Below are positions 6,869 through 57,739 of a stretch of 64,000 nucleotides of DNA, in pieces (position 1 is the stretch's first letter; each line of letters begins with the position of its first letter). This DNA comes from Planococcus sp. MB-3u-03 (GTDB lineage Bacteria > Bacillota > Bacilli > Bacillales_A > Planococcaceae), in contig NZ_CP025135.1 in the NCBI RefSeq assembly GCF_002833405.1, forward strand, positions 2,027,501-2,091,500. Direction: 5' to 3'. The notes under the pieces are model-generated. The model was not told the origin of the DNA and ran no database searches. It saw only the letters and a program-made list of their open reading frames with translations. The position numbers and the translations under genes are program-made.

Positions 6869-6902
6869 AAAACCGCACCGGAACTTTATCCGGTGCGGTT
6901 TT
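6869..6902. terminator. Bidirectional terminator, left copy of a duplicated pair
   Basis: A 13-bp AT-flanked stem (AAAACCGCACCGG / CCGGTGCGGTTTT) with an AACTTTAT loop lies just after the permease stop. The same 34 bases recur exactly at 7286-7319, on the other side of the inserted element. It ends transcription of the plus-strand ABC operon. Confidence 0.85.
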
Positions 6903-7285
6903 CAGAGTGTTGAAGAAGTCTATTAATCCATTACGAATTAGAATGAAGTGTTTTTTTCTACATTCAAAAATCAATGATCTTTCTAAGTATTTGGAGAAGC
7001 GTTCGCTCGTAACCCCTTCTGCTCAATAATGCTGCGCATTACTTTCGCAAAGATAAGGTCTCCCGTAGGTCGACCTTATCTTTCCAGTGGATCAGCGAGA
7101 CGACTGAGACCCCGCAAGGAATGAATGAGCGAAGTTTAGCTGAGCACATTCATTTGCGACGCATCTGCCACGCAGATGTGAGAGCACAAGGGTTTCAAAG
7201 CGACTGAGGAGGCTCGATTCCCGCCCCACGGAAAGCGAGCGATAAGCTTCGGAAAATACGGTTTCCTGAGTTTCTTGACAGCCTG
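6903..7285. mobile_element. Non-coding intergenic element, copy 1, inserted between two identical terminators
   Basis: This 383-bp segment is closely similar to 56936-57242. Both begin CAGAGTGTTGAAGAA and share long blocks, such as GGAGAAGCGTTCGCTCGTAA, CTCCCGTAGGTCGAC, GATCAGCGAGACGAC and GGAAAGCGAGCGATAAGCTT. Copy 1 has about 75 extra bases near 7120-7195. An internal hairpin with a perfect 11-bp stem lies at 7050-7082. The left end and the inverted right end match at about 11 of 15 positions, resembling weak terminal inverted repeats. No convincing gene lies inside; open frames here overlap repeat sequence and lack ribosome sites. It resembles the GC-rich dispersed intergenic repeats known in Bacillales, but I cannot assign a named family. 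Confidence 0.75.
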
Positions 7286-7323
7286 AAAACCGCACCGGAA
7301 CTTTATCCGGTGCGGTTTTTTTA
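7286..7323. terminator. Bidirectional terminator, right copy of a duplicated pair
   Basis: Its first 34 bases are identical to 6869-6902, with a longer T run that overlaps the stop codon of the convergent VOC gene. It probably serves as that gene's terminator. Confidence 0.85.
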
Positions 7324-55832: not shown

Positions 55833-56891
55833 GTGGGCAAGTGGTTTAATAAAAAACTGGCCACCATATTGCTGGTCATTGCTATTGTGGTTTTAATCTC
55901 TATATACATATTGCCAATTGCTGTTCCGTTGATCATCGCATTGCTCACCGCCATCTTCCTTGAACCTTTTGTCAAATTCATGCAGAAACGGTTCAAATGG
56001 CAACGTAAAGGTGCGGTCATCACGGTGTTTATTCTCTTCCTCGTCATTGCTTCTGGCTTGGTTTACTGGATTATCACGCAGTTGGTTGGACAAATTATAC
56101 AATTCTCAAAAATGGTTCCAGAGTATACAAATTCCCTCTCACATATGTGGGGTGAAGTGGAAGCCTTCTTCCTGCGCTCCACCGCCGAAATGCCGGTTGA
56201 AGTCGTCAATTCATTCGAAACGGAAATGATCGCTTTTGCGGAAGGCATTCGCGACTGGATCTTAACTTTCGTCAACTACGATACGGTCACCAATTTATTG
56301 ACGGGCATCCCTTCTTTTTTGGTCAGCTTCATCGTCTTCCTCATCGCCTTGTTCTTGTTCATGCTCGATTTGATGGATTTGAAAGGTATGCTGTTCAACC
56401 GCTTGAAGGAATCGACGGCCGAGAAAGTGCGCTTTATGAGTGCCCGCCTGAACAATGTCGTCTTCGGCTTCTTGAAAGCCCAATTCCTTGTCAGTTTGAT
56501 CATCTTTGCGGTTTCATTGATCGCCTTGTTGTTTATCGCGCCTGAATATGCCTTGGTCATGTCGCTTGTCATCTGGGTCATCGACTTCATCCCGATCCTC
56601 GGTTCGATTATCGTATTGACCCCTTGGTTCATTTACATGTTCATTGTCGGCGATATCGTCCAAGGAACGCAGCTTGCGATTTTGGCCTTGGTGCTATTGG
56701 TCATCAGAAGAACAGTTGAACCGAAAGTGATGGGCACCCAAATCGGGCTATCCCCCCTTGCCACATTGATCGCTATGTTCATTGGCCTTCAATTGATCGG
56801 CTTTCTTGGCTTCTTTATCGGGCCGCTACTGGTCATTCTCTTTACTTCGGCACGCGAAGCCGGAATCATCAAAATGGAGTTTAAAGTTTAA
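55833..56891 (+). CDS. AI-2E family transporter (PerM/YtvI-like)
   Basis: This 352-aa protein has about seven or eight hydrophobic segments (ILLVIAIVVLISIYILPIAV at the start, VSFIVFLIALFLFMLDLMDL near 170, IAMFIGLQLIGFLGFFIGPLL near 310, split by single glycines). The family core LVIWVIDFIPILGSIIVLTPW near 245 (split as LVIWVIDFIPILG and SIIVLTPW) and RRTVEPKVMGTQIGLSPL near 290 is typical. Members export autoinducer-2 or act in sodium or drug efflux; the substrate is not predictable. The start is a GTG with AAGGAGG upstream. Confidence 0.9.
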   Translation: MGKWFNKKLATILLVIAIVVLISIYILPIAVPLIIALLTAIFLEPFVKFMQKRFKWQRKGAVITVFILFLVIASGLVYWIITQLVGQIIQFSKMVPEYTNSLSHMWGEVEAFFLRSTAEMPVEVVNSFETEMIAFAEGIRDWILTFVNYDTVTNLLTGIPSFLVSFIVFLIALFLFMLDLMDLKGMLFNRLKESTAEKVRFMSARLNNVVFGFLKAQFLVSLIIFAVSLIALLFIAPEYALVMSLVIWVIDFIPILGSIIVLTPWFIYMFIVGDIVQGTQLAILALVLLVIRRTVEPKVMGTQIGLSPLATLIAMFIGLQLIGFLGFFIGPLLVILFTSAREAGIIKMEFKV

Positions 56892-56898
56892 AATGCAC

Positions 56899-56935
56899 AA
56901 AAAAAGCACTGAGCAAATTATGCTCAGTGCTTTTT
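56899..56935. terminator. Bidirectional terminator, left copy of a second duplicated pair
   Basis: The stem AAAAAGCACTGAGCA / TGCTCAGTGCTTTTT lies after the AI-2E gene. An almost identical copy (one loop base differs, A for G) lies at 57243-57279 beyond the element. Confidence 0.9.
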
Positions 56936-57242
56936 CAGAGTGTTGAAGAAATCTGAAATCGCTATAAATGAAAAAAGAGACCACTTATTCCACATTCAAA
57001 AACCAATGTTCTATGCAAGTATTTGGAGAAGCGTTCGCTCGTAAACCCTTCTGCTCAATAATGCTGCGCATTACTTTCGCAAAGATAATGTCTCCCGTAG
57101 GTCGACTTTATCTTTCCTGTGGATCAGCGAGACGACCGAGACCCCGCAAGCAGCGTAGCGGCTGAGGAGGCTTGGGCGCGAGCCCACGGAAAGCGAGCGA
57201 TAAGCTTCGGAAAATACGGTGTCTAACCTTTCTCGAAAACCG
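56936..57242. mobile_element. Non-coding intergenic element, copy 2, inserted between two near-identical terminators
   Basis: This 307-bp segment is similar to 6903-7285, with the same start (CAGAGTGTTGAAGAA directly after the terminator T run) and the same ordered blocks, but lacks about 75 internal bases present in copy 1. Its inner hairpin corresponds to 7050-7082 but carries one T-T mismatch. The last 30 or so bases are more diverged. Open frames inside show no coding evidence. Like copy 1 it lies between convergent genes. Confidence 0.75.
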
Positions 57243-57279
57243 AAAAAGCACTGAGCAAGTTATGCTCAGTGCTTTTTTT
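57243..57279. terminator. Bidirectional terminator, right copy of a second duplicated pair
   Basis: The same stem as 56901-56935, with a T7 run that overlaps the ctaM stop codon. It probably ends the cta operon on the minus strand. Confidence 0.9.
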
Positions 57280-57739
57280 ATCCACCCAGAATCGCTTTGA
57301 AAACCGAAGTCGTGTGTCCGCCTTCGTAGAATACATAAAGCAGTAAATAAACGGTAACTCCTGTAATCGCGGTGAAGAACCACACAACACTCGTGAACGG
57401 GCCGATCTTGCGGTGTTTATCGAGGCGGTTTTTCAAGCCCCAGTAGATGGTCACCAGTCCCATCACTGCCCCGATAGTTGCAAGCGTGATATGGAAAATT
57501 AGAAAGACGGTATAGTAGATTTTCAATTCATCCGGTCCCCCGAATGCCGTATTTCCTACGAATAATGTACGCGAGACATAGATGATGAAAAACGTCAGTG
57601 CAGCGGCACCGGCGCCAAGCATCACTTTTTTATGTGCTTCGATGCGGCGTTTGAGGATCAAGTTCCATCCGATCGCCACCAATACGGCGCTCAAGACGAT
57701 AAAGAATGTACTAATGGTTGGCAATAGCGGCAAATTCAT
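57278..57739 (-). CDS. ctaM: CtaM, cytochrome oxidase assembly protein (DUF420)
   Basis: This 153-aa DUF420 protein has four hydrophobic helices (FFIVLSAVLVAIGWNLIL near 12, VMLGAGAAALTFFIIYVSRTL near 39, IYYTVFLIFHITLATIGAVMGL near 74 in two parts, and VVWFFTAITGVTVYLLLYVFY near 118 in two parts). S. aureus CtaM is needed for maturation of heme-copper oxidases. Its place after ctaG supports the same role. AAGGAG precedes the ATG. Confidence 0.9.
   Translation of the reverse strand: MNLPLLPTISTFFIVLSAVLVAIGWNLILKRRIEAHKKVMLGAGAAALTFFIIYVSRTLFVGNTAFGGPDELKIYYTVFLIFHITLATIGAVMGLVTIYWGLKNRLDKHRKIGPFTSVVWFFTAITGVTVYLLLYVFYEGGHTTSVFKAILGG

Follow-up and report, generated by a model that had tools for sequence, protein, structure and literature searches.

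A small Planococcus element with IS1182-type ends found within duplicated terminator hairpins

As described in the accessible text of Furi et al. 2016 (PMC4923244), IS1272/TnSha1 of staphylococci targets terminators and makes no duplication. In the available part of Wan et al. 2017 (PMC5678879), three outcomes are proposed according to where an element joins a stem-loop: removal of the stem-loop if it joins at the 3' feet, the route proposed for IS1272; duplication of the stem-loop if it joins at the 5' feet (pathway b in Figure 13 of that paper); and duplication of the loop if it joins there. A small, non-autonomous and intergenic element with IS1182-type ends, MITEPye1, has also been described in Paracoccus yeei (PMC11578231). 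As far as the accessible parts of these papers go, palindrome and terminator targeting by the IS1182 family is already in print, as is an IS1182-type MITE (MITEPye1, PMC11578231).

The window analyzed here, a stretch of 64,000 nucleotides from Planococcus sp. MB-3u-03, contains two copies of an element that resembles MITEPye1 in size, in its lack of a transposase, in its IS1182-type ends and in its intergenic location, but MITEPye1 has 4-bp direct repeats and no terminator duplication is reported for it in the accessible text (PMC11578231). The resemblance to IS1272/TnSha1 extends to membership of the IS1182 family and to hairpin targets, several of them confirmed terminators, with no consensus in primary sequence; however, whereas IS1272 removes or replaces the hairpin without duplication (PMC4923244 and PMC5678879, accessible parts), the window element duplicates the whole hairpin. 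Among open PMC papers we found neither whole-terminator duplication by an IS1182-type element nor this MITE, and in open papers we found no report of the spread of such duplication in the IS1182 family, or of an IS and a MITE sharing one terminator. IS elements are also said to enter REP palindromes, a finding attributed to Tobes and Pareja in 2006. Those targets are palindromic like the ones described here, but they are one repeated sequence family, whereas the stems entered by the window element differ by site.

We are confident that this element is a MITE mobilized by IS1182-family DDE transposases acting in trans, and that its insertion at a hairpin foot copies the whole stem-loop. Comparison of loci within and between genomes establishes, at the level of sequence, the IS1182-type ends, the position at the hairpin foot, the use of either orientation, and the presence of the hairpin once before insertion and twice after it; the cruciform and the joining step are what we infer from this pattern.

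Copy 2 (56936-57242, + strand), 307 bp in length, sits between convergent genes, as a sequence-only reading of the window had stated: an AI-2E family transporter gene upstream (55833-56891, + strand; PF01594) and a DUF420 gene downstream (57278-57739, - strand; PF04238), which is adjoined by a ctaG-type gene. On the transporter side is a terminator hairpin (56901-56935, + strand) that serves the transporter gene and is present in one copy at the empty sites of relatives, and on the other side is a second hairpin (57243-57277, + strand) that abuts the DUF420 stop codon. Each hairpin is 35 bp long with perfect 15-bp arms, and the two are identical at 34 of 35 positions with the sole mismatch in the loop, so that the coordinates and the identity agree with the original description of a 307-bp copy between two terminator copies with one loop difference. 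Assuming equal base frequencies, the chance that 35 bp match with no more than one mismatch is ~9e-20 per position. The two ends of the element, CAGAGTGTTGAAGAA and CAGGCTGTCGAGAAA, are imperfect inverted repeats of each other; in copy 2 the left end is CAGAGTGTTGAAGAA (56936-56950, + strand), one or two positions off the left ends of congener insertion sequences, and the right end (57228-57242, - strand) is decayed, where other copies read CAGGCTGTCGAGAAA inward. No match to the element was found in plasmid records.

Copy 1 (6903-7285, + strand; 383 bp) lies between two 34-bp hairpins (6869-6902 and 7286-7319, both + strand) that are identical, the exact duplicate that had been reported, and the stem sequences of the copy-1 and copy-2 terminators are indeed unrelated. 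The genome-wide collection of copies that the same reading had proposed as a check was then carried out in the genome that includes the window (G000; 3.6 Mb, 13 contigs), where 70 matches to the element were merged by hand into 40 places (40 of 74 candidates scored). Seven further places came from searching with a short variant (40 of 61 candidates scored), and the inventory may be incomplete. Seven of the 40 places have no recognizable ends and were left out of the count (L036, L042, L055, L059, L066, L067, and L068). We scored the alignment of left to right flanks and called a duplication when the score exceeded 18, the maximum of 1056 mismatched left/right pairs (mean 7.6). By this measure the hairpin is duplicated in 23 of the 33 places with recognizable ends, and stem sequences vary from locus to locus, as the check required of structure-guided targeting. 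Two of the seven extra places are also duplicated as judged by eye (L131 and L133).

The remaining 10 places fall below the threshold: at L039 both flanking hairpins are present but diverged (score 14), the left side of L070 is half a hairpin, and L041, L048, L051, L057, L058, L063, L064, and L069 have a one-sided hairpin or none that is clear. At L048, L058, and L064 the element is found immediately behind a gene end with a hairpin only at the far side, and the gene-side copy seems to have been lost. We also note that at L040 and at L285 the hairpin pairs have diverged with their stems still paired, in part by two-sided changes, as though each copy had been maintained as a hairpin. By a crude rule based on the longest open frame, the flanking genes are convergent at 18 of the 33 places, tandem at 15 and divergent at none.

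The duplicated segments closely follow the hairpins themselves. All 23 repeats fold as hairpins, with left copies of 23-37 bp and right copies of 23-41 bp, and in 17 of the 23 both repeat ends are located within 2 nt of a hairpin foot. At least nine flush pairs are present in 6/23 repeats at their aligned boundaries and in 22/23 after trimming of up to 5 nt per end, compared with 4 of 613 untrimmed AAA-to-TTT control windows of like size from the same loci. Folding energy is a less sharp measure, by which some flanks are not extreme; for L061, for example, about one fifth of 594 control pieces fold as well. The claim that the sites share a structure rather than a sequence holds for the hairpin, which is general among the 23; the T run is usual yet not required, and at L043 the target hairpin lacks a long one.

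To see the sites before insertion, we turned to relatives. Counting G000, 43 of the 46 genomes from the genus match the left flank of copy 2, and the site was read at 13 loci, 12 of which were classified (G035 was left out). Eight genomes (G015, G016, G019, G020, G036, G041, G042, and G043) have one terminator and no element, and four (G000, G005, G014, and G001) have the element and two terminators, the second hairpin being diverged in G001. The joined flanks of twelve other G000 sites were also searched in ten relatives, giving 120 cells, of which 70 are contiguous with one terminator and 34 are interrupted, either by 197-430 bp or by 1151 and 2305 bp; one is split across contigs, and among the matches listed 10 are partial and five have no match, two classes that may be too large. 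Relatives without the element thus carry the same local terminator once, which bears out the statement that the terminator is not part of the element.

Thirty-four occupied loci were fetched from relatives, 31 from the 34 interrupted cells and three at the copy-2 site, and 28 of them carry a duplication above the threshold set in G000; the six that do not are L269, L280, L281, L283, L286, and L287. In five of the 34 the element is inverted relative to the G000 copy, at three sites (L032 in G020; L050 in G036; L037 in G005, G014, and G019). Single terminators have therefore been used repeatedly and in both orientations.

The relatives also bear on the relative age of the two copies, for which identities were computed from 100 bases at the start of the element and 95 at its end. 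At the copy-2 site, the elements of G001, G014, and G005 are 0.97, 0.95, and 0.92 identical to copy 2, respectively, and in all three copy 2 is the best match among the G000 copies; judged from these identities, the copy-2 insertion is inherited. The element at the copy-1 site of G020 is only 0.78 identical to copy 1, which ranks 27th of 33 G000 copies as its match, and is probably a separate insertion. The proposed order, with copy 2 older than copy 1, is supported by this comparison. The loop mismatch that had been offered as the sign of age gave the same order but is by itself a weak clock, for the two hairpins at the inherited site in G005 are identical. As a separate observation, the interior of the inherited insertion (56936-57242 in the window; L138, L139, and L140) varies by species while the ends are alike: G000 and G005 each have an extra hairpin cassette, a different one in each, and G014 has neither, and such cassettes seem to have been gained, lost or swapped.

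The end pattern CAGRSTGTYGARRAA has 17 matches in G000 compared with none for the reversed control, and 425 matches in 40 of the 46 genomes compared with six control matches. No PF13751 transposase was found in G000; such a transposase is present in 18 of the 46 genomes, in 17 of them above the cut-off. At L073 (G022), a duplicated terminator encloses a 1532-bp IS whose ends are CAGGCTGTCGAGAAA and CAGCTTGTTGAGAAA, and NF033551 (IS1182) fits both halves of the IS transposase better than any other model, with 238 and 205 bits against a cut-off of 270, each half alone being below it. Wider homologs of the transposase are named IS1182 family transposase. The right end CAGGCTGTCGAGAAA is exactly common to the element and an IS1182-family IS, and the left end is CAGAGTGTTGAAGAA in the element as against CAGAGTGTTGAGAAA in the IS at L177. 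At L177 (G001) the order is hairpin, IS of ~1660 bp, hairpin, MITE, hairpin, the third hairpin being slightly diverged; all three derive from one terminator. The autonomous IS and the MITE share their target behavior in that L073 and L177 are both in duplicated terminators, and at L247 (Planococcus salinarum) a hairpin repeat of the same sequence stands beside such an IS. These three autonomous IS1182-type elements have the same or nearly the same ends as the window element and duplicate whole terminators as it does, but they carry a transposase and the window element does not. Because its ends match those of congener IS1182-family insertion sequences that also duplicate whole hairpins, the element is best read as an IS1182-family MITE, and because its own genome has no PF13751 transposase, movement in trans would be inferred from the congeners. 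Another IS of G001, with transposase frames of more than 600 aa and seven copies, was considered as the partner and set aside, as its ends, GGGGCTGTCCCA, differ.

In the proposed mechanism, an IS1182-family DDE transposase would act in trans on the MITE ends and join them by strand transfer to an extruded cruciform at its 5' feet (pathway b of Wan et al.); the cuts would fall one hairpin apart, and gap repair would copy the complete stem-loop onto both sides of the element. The length of the duplication would then be set by the hairpin and not by a fixed stagger, and each convergent neighbor gene would keep its terminator, so that both genes beside an insertion can keep a stop signal. IS1272-type replacement, in which the hairpin is deleted with no duplication, does not describe a set with 23 of 33 hairpins duplicated; what is found is the whole stem-loop at both insertion ends, as pathway b predicts. 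The duplicated hairpins with unlike stems support the suggestion of structure-guided targeting, with the cruciform chemistry remaining the conjectural part of it.

The position of all 33 places at gene ends, by the crude rule, is also what selection would yield if the element inserted anywhere with an ordinary stagger of ~30 bp and only those insertions that spare genes and termination survived, thereby mimicking targeting. We regard this as unlikely, as the repeats vary in length (23-37 bp here and 16-44 bp in the family), and end at or near hairpin feet, within 2 nt in 17/23, and as single terminators have been reused in opposite orientation. A terminator that belongs to the element, or spread by homologous recombination between terminators, would fit the unlike hairpins at the ends of some insertion sequences (L097 and L084), and recombination between copies does occur; stems that differ by site and empty sites with the local hairpin once make either version very improbable. 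Group IIC introns are known at terminators, and a retroelement-type or single-strand mechanism, such as that of a group IIC intron or an HUH element, could be imagined for that reason. Such retroelements are not known to leave a target duplication. The element has inverted-repeat ends of the sort common to DDE insertion sequences together with a target duplication, and an Rfam scan of 56800-57400 gave 28 matches up to an E value of 5 and none at the gathering score, so we give such a mechanism almost no weight. Insertion at the hairpin foot by an IS1182-family transposase is the reading that we retain.

To ask how far whole-hairpin duplication extends, we scanned with aligned transposases and took the best 80 of 349 loci, which became 56 when 24 copies from one Paenibacillus genome were set apart and 41 testable loci when 15 with no repeat and a flank of <200 bp were left out. 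Among these 41, drawn from the best 80 of 349, 32 have a palindromic direct repeat of 16-44 bp beside inverted-repeat ends, whose scores include up to 4 bases of the direct repeat itself; one has a non-palindromic direct repeat (L206), and eight have no direct repeat. The 32 loci come from 26 organism labels in Bacillota and Proteobacteria, some with several copies, and 30 of them have at least six T in 10 nt at one foot.

The 24 copies set apart, from Paenibacillus sp. 2.1 (L217-L239 and L248), are of a related IS and look different: 20/24 have an exact 6-bp direct repeat, mostly inside a CTGC-N6-GCAG palindrome, as if the IS had inserted in the loop of a hairpin, and 14/24 have a repeat of at least 5 bp together with at least four stem pairs. 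These same counts led us to reject hairpin replacement for these copies. Replacement may be seen elsewhere. At the copy-1 site of G001 (L171), a second IS1182-type element of ~2064 bp with ends GGGGCTGTCCCA is in place of the right hairpin of the MITE, flanked by AAAA and TTTATT, and the only other copy of this type with both ends seen (L176) is flanked by AAAC and GTTT; both look like stem-loop replacement, on two complete copies only.

We lean towards a view of IS1182-family transposases as structure-programmed, such that where the ends join relative to stem or loop would decide between replacement (IS1272, and perhaps the second IS at the copy-1 site of G001), duplication of the whole hairpin (this MITE and 32/41 relatives) and 6-nt loop duplication (Paenibacillus sp. 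2.1). If true, each of the three outcomes in the scheme of Wan et al. occurs naturally, and duplication of the whole hairpin would make a self-renewing safe haven in which each insertion leaves two terminators, both possible targets; at L177 one terminator has become three. The element shows in nature an outcome that, in the accessible text of Wan et al. 2017 (PMC5678879), is drawn as a hypothetical pathway, and makes that pathway directly testable, since it offers a natural and countable DDE-type transposon with an entire secondary structure as its target duplication, together with empty sites and reused terminators. The same behavior would explain the spread of a repeat to dozens of sites with no gene broken and no terminator removed, and suggests that hairpin design could set both target site and duplication length.

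Several further features of these elements deserve mention. The transposase is split into two frames at L073, L097, L189, L190, L247, L256, L257, and L259; in 6/8 checked loci frame 0 ends at codon 190 with an A6G heptamer at nt 560 (L264 and L217 differ), and this conserved A6G at the frame split suggests programmed -1 frameshifting. The IS or IS remnant at L097 and at L084 has unlike hairpins at its ends, a structure that recombination between two insertions, or a deletion fusing them, could have produced. Within the MITE, the innermost GC-rich module is one long conserved stem of 32 pairs, with 1269 of 1280 cells paired; covariation is weak, with two pairs changed on both sides, and we claim no RNA function for it. 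The same module is also found without IS1182-type ends, within other stems (for example at L059, L066, L136, and L137), and in L177 it adjoins the right end of the autonomous IS.
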